The notes under the pieces were generated by a model. The model was given only the letters and a program-made list of their open reading frames with translations. It searched no databases and was not told where the DNA came from. A DNA stretch of 41,690 nucleotides. It comes from Bdellovibrionota bacterium (GTDB taxonomy: Bacteria; Bdellovibrionota; Bdellovibrionia; Bdellovibrionales; JAEYZS01). The stretch is from positions 1 through 41,690 of the forward strand of contig JAZKEU010000013.1 of the NCBI GenBank assembly GCA_040386775.1. Direction: 5' to 3'. Position 1 is the stretch's first letter. The number at the start of each line of letters is the position of its first letter. This document shows positions 31,495-41,690 of the stretch, piece after piece. The translations under genes and the position numbers were made by a program.

Positions 31495-32304
31495 CTACTT
31501 CAGGCCTTTGATTCTCTTTAAGCATTTGTTTGAAACTTGCACCTCAGAAAACTTATTCATGCTTTTAGAGTAAGCATAATCTTGCTTGCAAGTTTTAGGG
31601 TTTGTTTTGCTTGTAAAATGAAACTCTAGTGCATCGTCACAGATATCTAAACCAATTTTGATCACGTAAGTTGATCCGATTTCAAAATCATCAAATTTTG
31701 TCACGGTCGTTTGACGAGTAAGGATGGGCGACAAATGATTGATGATTTCTTCTTCGCAGAATGAATATGGGAATGGTGAGACATAGTTATAGTTTTCAGG
31801 GATAACGACTGGGAATTTATTTTCACTGATTTCTTTTTTAAGAGTTTGAAGGTTTTCGCCGTACATCGCATAGGCCATATTTTTTTCTTCGGTTGTCAGA
31901 GTTTTGTAATCTCGAACTCTATTCCATCCAAAGCCCCAGCGATAAGTGTTTTGCCCCAATGGACCGCCACCCGCTCTTGTTCCTAAATACATAATTCTTG
32001 CAGGAGAAGAATCTCCAGTAGCCTTAATGCAAGCAAAAAAATCTTGATCTACTTTTAATCTTTCAGCCTCTGTCCCGCCCAACCAATAAGAAGCATCGTG
32101 GTCTATGCAGCAATGTTGCCAGAGAGTAGGGTTTTCTTTTGTTCCATCTTTATATTTTGTACAGCCATCAGTAGCGAAAGGATTTAATTCTAGCTGAAAT
32201 GGACTCGATTTATTCTCTACAGAAAAAGTATAACCCACCAAGTTCTGTGCCTGCAAATTTTGAACAAACATCGTTGCTAGAATAATTAAAAGAAATTTAG
32301 CCAT
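31495..32304 (-). CDS. Exported phospholipase A2-like protein
   Basis: A signal peptide (MAKFLLIILATMFVQNLQA) is followed by a region with the phospholipase A2 active-site form: DGCTKYKDGT, then WQHCCIDHDASYW with C65, C66, H69 and D70. In secreted PLA2 the His-Asp pair in CCxxHD activates water, and a Gly-rich loop binds calcium. Here the loop equivalent would be around DGCTKYKDG, which is less certain. Extra C-terminal Cys (SFCEEE, LDICDD, PKTCKQ, NKCLKR) suggest disulfides. If active it would release fatty acids from phospholipids, for example of host or prey membranes (inference). The start is supported by AAGGA eight bases upstream of 32304. Confidence 0.65.
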   Translation of the reverse strand: MAKFLLIILATMFVQNLQAQNLVGYTFSVENKSSPFQLELNPFATDGCTKYKDGTKENPTLWQHCCIDHDASYWLGGTEAERLKVDQDFFACIKATGDSSPARIMYLGTRAGGGPLGQNTYRWGFGWNRVRDYKTLTTEEKNMAYAMYGENLQTLKKEISENKFPVVIPENYNYVSPFPYSFCEEEIINHLSPILTRQTTVTKFDDFEIGSTYVIKIGLDICDDALEFHFTSKTNPKTCKQDYAYSKSMNKFSEVQVSNKCLKRIKGLK

Positions 32305-38123: not shown

Positions 38124-38933
38124 ATGAAGCTGCGCATCAGGGTGAAAATGAGTCTTAAAAGCGAAGTAAAAATCAACCTAAAAATCAAACTCGAAAGAGT
38201 GCCTCGCATGAGGGGCTTTAAGGTCTCAATTCTGCCCAATTCGACGGTAGTAGTGAGGCTTGGAAAATCGGAAAATCTTTCTCGCGTACACGGTTTTATT
38301 GATAGCAACCAAGCTTGGTTAAAAAAGTGTTTAGAAAAAACAATTTTTATTCAATCTCAGTACCCTCAACTGAGTTTTATCGAGGGAGAAGCTTATAGAT
38401 TTTTGGGCGAAAATTATTTTCTAAAGTACGAAAAAACAGATGGAAAATTCGGTGTTGAAATTAAAAAACCTTATTTAATCCTCAAAGTTCCTACAAAAAT
38501 TTGGAAGGATGATTTTGCAAAATACCCACATCCTCAATTCCGAAAAAACATTCTTAAATTTTATCAAGAAGCTGCTGAAAGGGTTTTGCCAAAAAGAGTG
38601 AAAGAACTTGCTGAAATCACAGGTCTTAAGCCGACCAAGGTATCGCTCAGAAAACAGCGCACTCTTTGGGGAAGCTGTTCGCCGTCGGGCAGTATTCAGC
38701 TAAACTGGAAACTCATTTCAGCGCCCATCAATGTTATTGATTACGTAGTAATCCATGAACTTGCGCATTTAAAACATCCGAATCATTCAAAGCGTTTTTG
38801 GAATGAAGTTGCTATATTTTGCCCAGATTATAAGCAACTAAAGCTGTGGCTTAAAAAGCACTACTACAGTTTTGATCACTTGAACGAAACGTCGGAGCTG
38901 CACAGCACAAAATGGAAGTCCGATCTTCGATAG
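38124..38933 (+). CDS. YgjP-like (DUF45/M48-related) zinc metallopeptidase
   Basis: The catalytic region is clear: RTLWGSCSPSGSIQLNWKL, then VIDYVVIHELAHLKHPNH with HExxH and a further His, and FWNEVAIFCPDY. This is the DUF45/YgjP family (SprT-like minigluzincins), soluble zinc peptidases of largely unknown role. The first 25 residues are unusual, alternating basic and hydrophobic (MKLRIRVKMSLKSEVKINLK); the true start could be the in-frame ATG at 38148. The gene is divergent from ffs, with promoter signals of the two overlapping. Confidence 0.85.
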   Translation: MKLRIRVKMSLKSEVKINLKIKLERVPRMRGFKVSILPNSTVVVRLGKSENLSRVHGFIDSNQAWLKKCLEKTIFIQSQYPQLSFIEGEAYRFLGENYFLKYEKTDGKFGVEIKKPYLILKVPTKIWKDDFAKYPHPQFRKNILKFYQEAAERVLPKRVKELAEITGLKPTKVSLRKQRTLWGSCSPSGSIQLNWKLISAPINVIDYVVIHELAHLKHPNHSKRFWNEVAIFCPDYKQLKLWLKKHYYSFDHLNETSELHSTKWKSDLR

Positions 38934-39141
38934 CTGATTTTTGCGCTGGATGATTTTTGCTAAATGTTTCACTCTTTAGAATCAAACCTTGAATTTTATT
39001 GTGGAATGTTTCATCTTAATCTCTACATGACAACGAAATGATAGGGCAAATTTACAGAGCATATTCGGAGCTCATAACTTCGACTGCAATTTTGCGCGGA
39101 CAAGGGTCGCACATTTTAGATTTATGCTTTGAGGAGCAACG

Positions 39142-39633
39142 ATGATTACAAAAAATCCACATGCAAACTGGACAGGGATGATTGCTTTTATTGGATGTAT
39201 GGCAGCCACAACAGTATTTTTTATTTACGTTTTAGCATTTCAGCCAGGACCAGTAGATCAAACCAAAACTCCTGCGATCGGTCTTACAAAAGAACAATAT
39301 ATTGAGAGAAAAGAAGTTTGGATCAAGAGCACTCCTGAGGCTATCGCTCGCGGAGAAGCAAGCTACAAACTGAATTGTGCATTCTTCTACCAAGAGGGAA
39401 AAACAGATAAATTTTTAGAAATGTTTAAGAGCGGAGATCTCCCTAACAAAGGAACTGAGCTCGAAATTTTCAGAATGATTTCAAAGGGAAATACTGAGCA
39501 AGGGATCATGAAGATTGATCACATCAGAGAAGACGAAAGATGGGATATCGTACATTACTTAAGATCGCTCAATACAAATCTTCCTTCAACTTCAAGATCG
39601 GACTGGAAGCAATTTTTCAAAGAAGGCGCGTAA
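39142..39633 (+). CDS. Membrane-anchored cytochrome c-like protein lacking the haem-binding motif
   Basis: The N-terminus has one TM helix (about 11-33) followed by a cytochrome c-like domain: GEASYKLNC at the usual haem helix, GIMKI in the place of the axial Met loop, and the C-terminal helix DERWDIVHYLRSL. However, the CxxCH motif is missing: residues 79-83 read C-A-F-F-Y, so only the first Cys remains. Covalent haem binding of the usual kind is therefore unlikely. The frame is intact and there is a good GAGGAG site six bases before the start, so this is not an obvious pseudogene. It is first in the cox operon, which suggests an assembly or structural role in the oxidase. Confidence 0.75.
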   Translation: MITKNPHANWTGMIAFIGCMAATTVFFIYVLAFQPGPVDQTKTPAIGLTKEQYIERKEVWIKSTPEAIARGEASYKLNCAFFYQEGKTDKFLEMFKSGDLPNKGTELEIFRMISKGNTEQGIMKIDHIREDERWDIVHYLRSLNTNLPSTSRSDWKQFFKEGA

Positions 39634-39642
39634 TTTAAAAAC

Positions 39643-40497
39643 ATGAAAAAACTATCGTCGGCCCAACATTTTAAGGTTTTTGTAGCAGTGTCTCTCGCTG
39701 CTTCAAGCTTTGCATTTGCAGAAAATGCTAATGCTCCTTGGAAGCAAGTTGGCGCGGTATCCAATGAAGTGCCAAGAGAATTAGAAAACGTTGGAATCAA
39801 AGAGCAAAACGGTGCAACAGTGGATCCAGGATTAATTTTTACGGATGACACTGGCAAAAAAGTAACATTGGGTGACTATTATAATAAGGATAAGCCAATC
39901 ATTTTATCTTTGGTTTATTTTAACTGTCCAAGTCTTTGCAATATGCACTTGAATGGATTGAACGACGGGCTCAAAGGTTTGGACTGGGCTGTTGGGGATA
40001 AATTTGAGGTACTGTCTGTTTCTATTGAGCCTAAAGAAGACTATAAATTAGCAGCAGGAAAAAAAGAATCTTATATAGAGGCTTACGGTAGAAAAGAAAG
40101 TGCATCGGGATGGCATTTTTTAACTGGTGAGGACTCGCAGATTAAGGCTTTAGCAAAACAAGTGGGCTTTGGTTATAAGTGGGATGAGGCTTCTCAGCAA
40201 TATGCCCACTCTTCGGCAGCCATCGTGCTTACTCCTGAGGGCAAAATTTCTCGCTACCTTCATGGAATATCTTTTGATCCAAAAACAATTCGACTTTCAA
40301 TGGTAGAAGCATCCAGTGGTAAGATCGGTGAGATCGTAGATCATTTGGTATTGATGTGCTTCAAGTACGATCCAAATAAAAGAACATACGCGTTTTATGC
40401 ATTTAATATTATGAAATATGGAGCAGCTATTTGCTTGCTCATTTTTTTAGCTTTCTTAATTCCAAACTGGAGAAGAATGCTAAAGGAATCTAAGTAA
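39643..40497 (+). CDS. SCO1/SenC-family copper chaperone
   Basis: SCO proteins deliver copper to the CuA site of cytochrome c oxidase subunit II. A signal peptide (cleavage after AFA) precedes a thioredoxin-like fold. The copper ligands are C95 and C99 (FNCPSLCNM) and H189 (QYAHSSAA). Unlike the usual N-terminally anchored SCO, the protein has a C-terminal TM helix (about 256-276, YGAAICLLIFLAFLIP) with a basic cytosolic tail. It lies 9 bases after the cytochrome c-like gene and 15 before coxB, the gene of its expected client. Confidence 0.93.
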   Translation: MKKLSSAQHFKVFVAVSLAASSFAFAENANAPWKQVGAVSNEVPRELENVGIKEQNGATVDPGLIFTDDTGKKVTLGDYYNKDKPIILSLVYFNCPSLCNMHLNGLNDGLKGLDWAVGDKFEVLSVSIEPKEDYKLAAGKKESYIEAYGRKESASGWHFLTGEDSQIKALAKQVGFGYKWDEASQQYAHSSAAIVLTPEGKISRYLHGISFDPKTIRLSMVEASSGKIGEIVDHLVLMCFKYDPNKRTYAFYAFNIMKYGAAICLLIFLAFLIPNWRRMLKESK

Positions 40498-40512: not shown

Positions 40513-41433
40513 ATGTCTTACATGCCGATACAAGGATCGACGATCGCAAAAGAAGTAGACTTGTTATTCGACTTCACAGTTTGGTCGAGTGTGCTTGCCT
40601 GCATAATTTTGCTAGGTGGAATGACTTTTTTCATCATTAAGTACCAGCGTCGTTCTGATAACGATAAAACAGCGCACATTTCGCACAACCACTTGCTGGA
40701 ATTTATCTGGAGCTTCATACCTCTTGTTATATTCTTAGGTATGTTCTATTGGGGCTGGCACGTTTACAGCAAAATGAGAACATTCCCTGCAGATGCGATG
40801 GAGATCAGTATCACAGGAAGGCAGTGGGCATGGGACATGACTTATTCTACTGGGAAAAAAGTAACTAATGAATTGGTTATTCCTGTAGAAACGCCAGTGG
40901 TTCTGAACATGACTTCTGTCGATGTAATCCACAGCTTCTACGTTCCAAGTTTCCGCGTGAAACAAGACGTGGTTCCTGGAAAGAGATCTAAGATGTGGTT
41001 TCAGTCAGATAAGCTTGGAGATTACGAACTATTCTGTACAGAGTTTTGCGGTACTGCCCATTCAGGCATGATCGGTAAAGTTCGTGTAGTGACTAGAGCG
41101 GAATACGATGTTTGGATTAAAAAAGATAAATCAACAATGACTCCTGCAGAGCTTGGTAAAGATCACTTTGTTTCTAAAGGCTGTGTGGCTTGCCACTCAA
41201 CTGATGGCTCAATTAAAGTGGGTCCTTCCCTTAAAGCAGTTTGGGGATCGACGGTAAAACATTCTGATGGTTCATCTGCATTGGTTGATGAAGGCTACGT
41301 TCGCAGCTCTATATTAAATCCTCAGGAAAAATATGTAGCCGGATTCCAAGGCGTGATTATGCCTTCATTCCAAGGCTTGATTACAGAAGATGAGATTAAT
41401 GAAATTGTCGAATATTTAAAGACGTTGAAATAA
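40513..41433 (+). CDS. coxB: Cytochrome c oxidase subunit II with fused cytochrome c domain (caa3 type)
   Basis: Subunit II receives electrons at the binuclear CuA centre and passes them to subunit I. Two TM helices (about 17-40 and 60-83) are followed by the cupredoxin domain with CuA ligands H140 (DVIHSF), C175 and C179 (CTEFCG) and H183, plus the Met in HSGM. A C-terminal class I cytochrome c domain carries CxxCH with C224, C227 and H228 (GCVACHS); an axial Met may lie in GVIMPSF. This fusion defines caa3-type oxidases, which take electrons directly from soluble cytochrome c. The next gene, coxA, starts 13 bases on. Confidence 0.97.
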   Translation: MSYMPIQGSTIAKEVDLLFDFTVWSSVLACIILLGGMTFFIIKYQRRSDNDKTAHISHNHLLEFIWSFIPLVIFLGMFYWGWHVYSKMRTFPADAMEISITGRQWAWDMTYSTGKKVTNELVIPVETPVVLNMTSVDVIHSFYVPSFRVKQDVVPGKRSKMWFQSDKLGDYELFCTEFCGTAHSGMIGKVRVVTRAEYDVWIKKDKSTMTPAELGKDHFVSKGCVACHSTDGSIKVGPSLKAVWGSTVKHSDGSSALVDEGYVRSSILNPQEKYVAGFQGVIMPSFQGLITEDEINEIVEYLKTLK

Positions 41434-41446
41434 GGAAGAGGCTAAA

Positions 41447-41690
41447 ATGGCACACGGTCACGTAGAAGGTACAAATTACCTGAATGCAGAAAAAGGTTTG
41501 TGGTCTTGGTTAACAACTCTCGATCATAAGAGAATTGGAATCATGTATTTCATCACAGTGATGCTTTTGTTTTTTATCGGTGGAATGTTCGCTCTATTAT
41601 TGAGATTGGAATTGATGATGCCAGGGACGCAGTTCATTTCTCCTGATGTTTACAATCAGGTGATGACACTTCACGGATCGGTGATGGTCT
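41447..41690 (+). CDS. coxA: Cytochrome c oxidase subunit I, 3' truncated by window
   Basis: Only the first 81 codons are present. The protein starts MAHGHVEGTNYLNAEKG and shows the subunit I landmark TTLDHKRIGIMYF, then the first TM helix (ITVMLLFFIGGMFALLLRLEL) and the region before the second (YNQVMTLHGSVMV), including the His of TLHG that binds low-spin haem a. The start is preceded by AAGGAAGAGG. It follows coxB as usual; coxC and others presumably lie beyond the edge. Confidence 0.96.
   Translation, partial: MAHGHVEGTNYLNAEKGLWSWLTTLDHKRIGIMYFITVMLLFFIGGMFALLLRLELMMPGTQFISPDVYNQVMTLHGSVMV

Follow-up and report, generated by a model that had tools for sequence, protein, structure and literature searches.

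A cytochrome c-like protein lacking CxxCH at the head of a Bdellovibrionota cox operon: a probable haem-free subunit of the caa3 oxidase

The Cox Operon and Its First Gene

The stretch of DNA analysed here (41,690 nucleotides, referred to as the window) comes from an uncultured relative of the predatory Bdellovibrio and ends within a cox operon. The first gene of this operon, at 39142–39633 on the forward strand, is an intact open reading frame running from an ATG at 39142 to a TAA at 39633, with the sequence GAGGAG a few bases 5′ of the start codon. From the reading frame and its family membership, the product of 163 residues is predicted to be a haem-free, cytochrome c-like membrane protein. 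It is followed on the same strand by the copper chaperone SCO1/SenC (39643–40497, PF02630) and, as identified from sequence and Pfam, by CoxB (40513–41433), subunit II of a caa3 oxidase with a CuA site and a C-terminal haem c domain carrying CVACH, and by CoxA (41447–41690), subunit I, which continues beyond the window end. Beyond CoxA, the genome encodes CoxC, a COX4_pro subunit IV that is normal and has no cytochrome attached, and a member of the UbiA family, probably CtaB. Scans of 38850–39700 for promoters and terminators found none. Just past window position 41690, coxA (L170 1233–1565, G000:C13) is split by a short run of N and a change of frame, so that each half appears as a match of its own; the interruption is probably an assembly gap or a masked stretch, not a broken gene.

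Two parts can be distinguished in the first protein, both encoded on the forward strand. The N-terminal transmembrane (TM) module, residues 1–45 (39142–39276), follows the pattern NxxGxxxF...FFxY...QPGPVD, contains a modelled helix at residues 6–33, and is the sole part retained in the truncated relatives described below. The degenerate cytochrome c domain, residues 62–146 (39325–39579), contains modelled helices at 65–81, 88–97, 106–115, and 130–143. In the alignment the haem-binding CxxCH is replaced by CAFFY (C79-A-F-F-Y83, encoded by TGT GCA TTC TTC TAC at 39376–39390), so that both the second Cys and the proximal His are gone. The distal-ligand position is occupied by I122-M123 (39505–39510); the family axial Met aligns with I122, and M123, which had been read as axial-Met-like in the initial annotation, lies one column off. 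The same domain carries D135 (39544–39546), at a position taken up below.

Pfam PF00034 recovers the C-terminal part of a cytochrome c in this protein at 16.7 bits, against a cut-off of 21.3. AlphaFold2 modelling with seven sequences produced a long helix at the N-terminus and four further ones in a cytochrome c-like arrangement, with modest confidence (pLDDT 74.8, pTM 0.59). The best Foldseek matches were ActE chains, Kustc0458, and cytochromes c6, none of them below an E-value of 0.001 and the best PDB match being ActE at E = 0.049, while a profile search gave Kustc0458 (6h5l), ActE (6f0k), and CcoP as the best solved relatives. The model thus agrees with, though it does not prove, a retained cytochrome c fold.

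Loss of the Haem Site in Close Relatives

Within the order, a profile search matched the family in 121 of 141 genomes; a handful of the lowest-scoring matches span only the cytochrome domain of other proteins. Searching the named genome contigs with the single protein gave no match, and an alignment-based scan of genome contigs returned 17 loci, mostly distant. The window protein carries the N-terminal TM module typical of the family, NxxGxxxF...G(P)VD, as well as the position before SCO, and can be aligned over its whole length with its counterparts in G001 (E = 1.9e-42) and G002 (E = 3.9e-34), two genomes of the same family as the window genome (G000). From the fetched loci, 111 distinct full-length sequences were aligned, one of which is a fusion protein (L036). 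The C, C, and H of the motif are present in 108 of these 111; the three exceptions are the window protein with CAFFY, that of G002 with LSFLV, and that of G006, a genome from another family, in which the motif is deleted. The closest haem-type relative is the G001 protein, which bears CAYCH and is 44–46% identical to the window protein.

Position 135 also separates the two types. A small residue occupies it in all 108 haem-type proteins (102 Ala, three Gly, two Ser, and one Thr), and the three degenerate proteins carry Asp, Asp, and Asn. Among the six close genomes, this association would arise by chance in 1 of 20 cases, a figure to be read with the non-independence of the relatives in mind. 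The family axial Met, found in 97% of haem-type relatives, is replaced by Ile, Arg, or Leu in the three degenerate proteins. The CxxCH-bearing proteins of G001 (L003), G004 (L005), and G010 (L007) have also lost this Met and share HRF near the ligand position, which makes a Met-to-His ligand switch a candidate explanation; they likewise lack most of the loop residues that are otherwise conserved (G84, R93, W100). Since these haem-type proteins have the same changes, those of the Met and of the loop are not tied to haem loss, and CxxCH and A135 are the sole residues that separate haem-type from degenerate proteins. All three degenerate proteins keep the anchor and fold residues N9, G12, F16, W60, G71, G98, G116, R133, and W134. 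The pattern is apparently one of a haem site lost while the anchor and the fold were retained.

Anchor-Only Relatives and the Number of Losses

In eight genomes, the product of the gene directly upstream of SCO is reduced to the TM segment plus a short tail and measures from 49 to about 90 residues. These stubs belong to four lineages (G003, G011, and G016; G007, G014, and G023; G042; G136), and the TM segment alone is significant in whole-genome searches, with E-values of, for example, 1e-13 for G023, 1.3e-12 for G014, 1.5e-11 for G007, and 1.7e-9 for G136. The CxxCH of CoxB itself is retained in the window genome, in G002, and throughout the eight stub genomes. Upstream of SCO, no family member was seen in G076 and G101, so the gene does not occur in every genome.

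In a tree of SCO and CoxB, the stubs fall in four places: f2, part of f6, G042 next to the haem-type G030, and G136 next to haem-type congeners. Each degenerate full-length protein stands beside a haem-type one in this tree, some nodes of which are weakly supported. An eleven-gene tree (3061 amino acids) joins G000 and G001 at 100% support with G002 outside, which implies independent losses of the motif in G000 and G002 unless the gene of G001 was replaced. The tree of the short cytochrome gene itself favours pairing G000 with G002 (AU p = 0.81) but remains compatible with the pairing in the species tree (p = 0.23). Counted on these trees, the haem site or domain was lost at least six times, four times by truncation and two or three times in place. 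This count takes the full haem-type form as ancestral, because haem-type homologues exist outside the order and haem-type genomes are nested around the stubs.

These comparisons confirm that a cytochrome c relative without CxxCH opens the cox operon, as initially annotated: it has relatives along its whole length, and SCO, CoxB, and CoxA follow. The same annotation had left to an alignment of orthologues whether the loss is conserved, and had regarded orthologues with a normal CxxCH in otherwise identical strains as evidence against it. Conservation does not extend throughout its own family, in which G001 carries CAYCH, and normal orthologues thus exist between genera. The comparison covered one genome of the window genus. 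The normal orthologues do not overturn the loss, because other lineages show it again, some of them having deleted the haem domain altogether.

Link to the Oxidase and Comparison with Known Systems

In other Bdellovibrionota families, outside the order, the same domain occurs inside proteins of 254–389 amino acids that begin with oxidase subunit IV; such fusions are known from these sister groups and not from Bdellovibrionales. Pfam detects COX4_pro (PF03626) together with cytochrome c in L192, L198, and L036, and the same arrangement was recognized by eye in L194, L195, L196, L199, and L200. CoxC adjoins several of the fusion proteins. For the fusions themselves, this architecture argues well for a cytochrome that functions within the oxidase, and the sister-group link of this domain to subunit IV makes the window protein a probable caa3 subunit too. 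The family TM segment resembles the third subunit IV helix, a similarity that is no more than suggestive. In contrast to these haem-type fusions, in which the homologous domain is joined to a whole subunit IV, the Bdellovibrionales form is encoded by a gene of its own and has a single TM segment.

The respiratory setting of the window genome includes alternative complex III (ACIII; ActD and an ActE-like protein with neighbours at C17), a cbb3 oxidase, and a Cytochrom_C_asm protein, the last of which indicates that haem c can be made. As CoxB has both CuA and CVACH and the genome encodes ACIII, electrons can plausibly bypass the window protein. A parallel is provided by ActE, the analogous small monohaem subunit of Flavobacterium johnsoniae, without which electrons still flow to cytochrome aa3, its loss slowing growth (PMC8552683).

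The closest known system is the Bdellovibrionales monohaem cytochrome c of the cox operon, G001 with CAYCH being the nearest example. The window protein shares its operon place, TM module, and fold residues, and like the G001 protein has no family axial Met, but differs by the absence of the second Cys and the proximal His. ActE (PDB 6f0k, 6btm) is likewise a class I cytochrome c domain tied to an aa3/caa3 oxidase; however, it belongs to the act operon, has an intact CxxCH, and in F. johnsoniae is held by a lipid anchor (PMC8552683), whereas the window protein has a TM anchor and lies in the cox operon. Identity with ActE was rejected on these grounds and on the presence of a separate ActE candidate (L002) next to ActD at G000:C17. 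CcoP/FixP of cbb3 oxidases also combine a TM anchor with one or more cytochrome c domains, and were rejected too, since 15 family members gave no match to FixP_N (PF14715) and the operon is cox, not cco; the window genome has its own CcoP elsewhere, with FixP_N and CxxCH. A literature search for oxidase cytochrome subunits without CxxCH found no precedent, which does not prove that none has been published.

Interpretation and Alternative Explanations

The reading that best accounts for these results, with a probability of roughly 0.6, is that the window protein serves the (ACIII-)caa3 oxidase as a haem-free subunit with a structural or docking role, derived from a conserved Bdellovibrionales monohaem family, with electrons passing directly to CoxB. 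The ancestor would have been a small monohaem cytochrome c, anchored in the membrane as a subunit of the caa3 oxidase, which probably works with ACIII. In the window lineage, the covalent haem would then have been lost, the TM anchor and the apo cytochrome fold being kept as a structural or docking subunit, and electrons would go straight to the haem c domain of CoxB. We infer the absence of haem, the physical membership of the oxidase, and the structural role from sequence comparison. The repeated loss of the haem-carrying part points to a structural job beyond electron carriage, which most likely resides chiefly in the TM module. An apo-domain with a structural role, one of the options raised in the initial annotation, is accordingly the most likely reading, in keeping with the repeated loss and the retained anchor and fold residues.

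Several other explanations deserve consideration. The haem c of CoxB may have made the small cytochrome superfluous, leaving a functionless protein that is heading for deletion as in the lineages without the domain. Such decay would fit the repeated loss of the domain and the lower conservation of this gene between G000 and G001 (44% identity) than of SCO (64%) or CoxB (67%), but it is unlikely in view of the intact reading frame with its good ribosome site and operon position, the fold residues and TM module kept in all three degenerate proteins, and the recurrence there of Asp or Asn at position 135. Moreover, the gene has not vanished entirely from the stub lineages, which retain its TM part. 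The location directly upstream of SCO in the same operon, which recurs in those relatives whose neighbourhood was read, would also suit an assembly factor that helps SCO to load CuA, for instance, or serves as a chaperone of CoxB. Against this rather improbable role stand the ancestral form, a normal haem c protein, and the sister-group counterpart fused to subunit IV, a resident subunit of the oxidase.

Haem might instead be bound in an unusual manner, either by way of Cys79 alone or without a covalent bond, M123 or H127 acting as a ligand. All three residues are present, and the HRF that stands in place of the family Met in the CxxCH relatives G001, G004, and G010 indicates that ligation may vary in this clade. 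Known c-type variants with a single Cys (A/FxxCH), however, retain the proximal His, which is lost here. At this place, the degenerate proteins of G002 and G006 lack Cys altogether, and D135 puts a charge where every haem-type relative has a small residue. Either mode of binding, of which attachment through one Cys had been put forward initially, is thus very improbable. Least probable by far is a sequencing or assembly error at 39379–39390: the assembly consists of 26 contigs and has a short N run just past the window end, yet an error would need to have altered two or more codons without disturbing the frame, A135 is also changed, and the motif is missing from two more genomes, each time in another way.

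Returning to the haem-free structural or docking subunit, a wider version of this proposal can be put forward more tentatively, with odds slightly below even. In Bdellovibrionota, the TM module would serve the ACIII-linked caa3 oxidase as a hitherto undescribed accessory subunit, which may have originated from the third helix of a subunit IV–cytochrome fusion. Its structural job would have been kept throughout, with an optional haem domain that was lost at least six times and that left some lineages with a folded apo-cytochrome. A lineage without the haem site, found beside anchor-only lineages and complete relatives, offers a ready-made comparison for asking whether, in ACIII systems, the small monohaem subunits that stand between complex III and oxidase are electron carriers or hold the complexes together. 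It also suggests that haem proteins may be overcounted when they are called by fold or operon place alone.

Other Observations in the Window Genome

The gene directly upstream of the cox operon (38124–38933, forward strand) encodes a YgjP-like metallopeptidase, and it keeps this position in the close relatives for which the neighbourhood was read. In the cbb3 oxidase genes (L179 2189–3220 and L171, G000:C8), CcoN is apparently fused to CcoO, the C-terminus of COX1 being followed by FixO in one frame. Elsewhere in the window, the reverse-strand gene at 31495–32304 encodes a predicted secreted protein with the motif CCIDHDASYW, which by eye resembles the active site of phospholipase A2.
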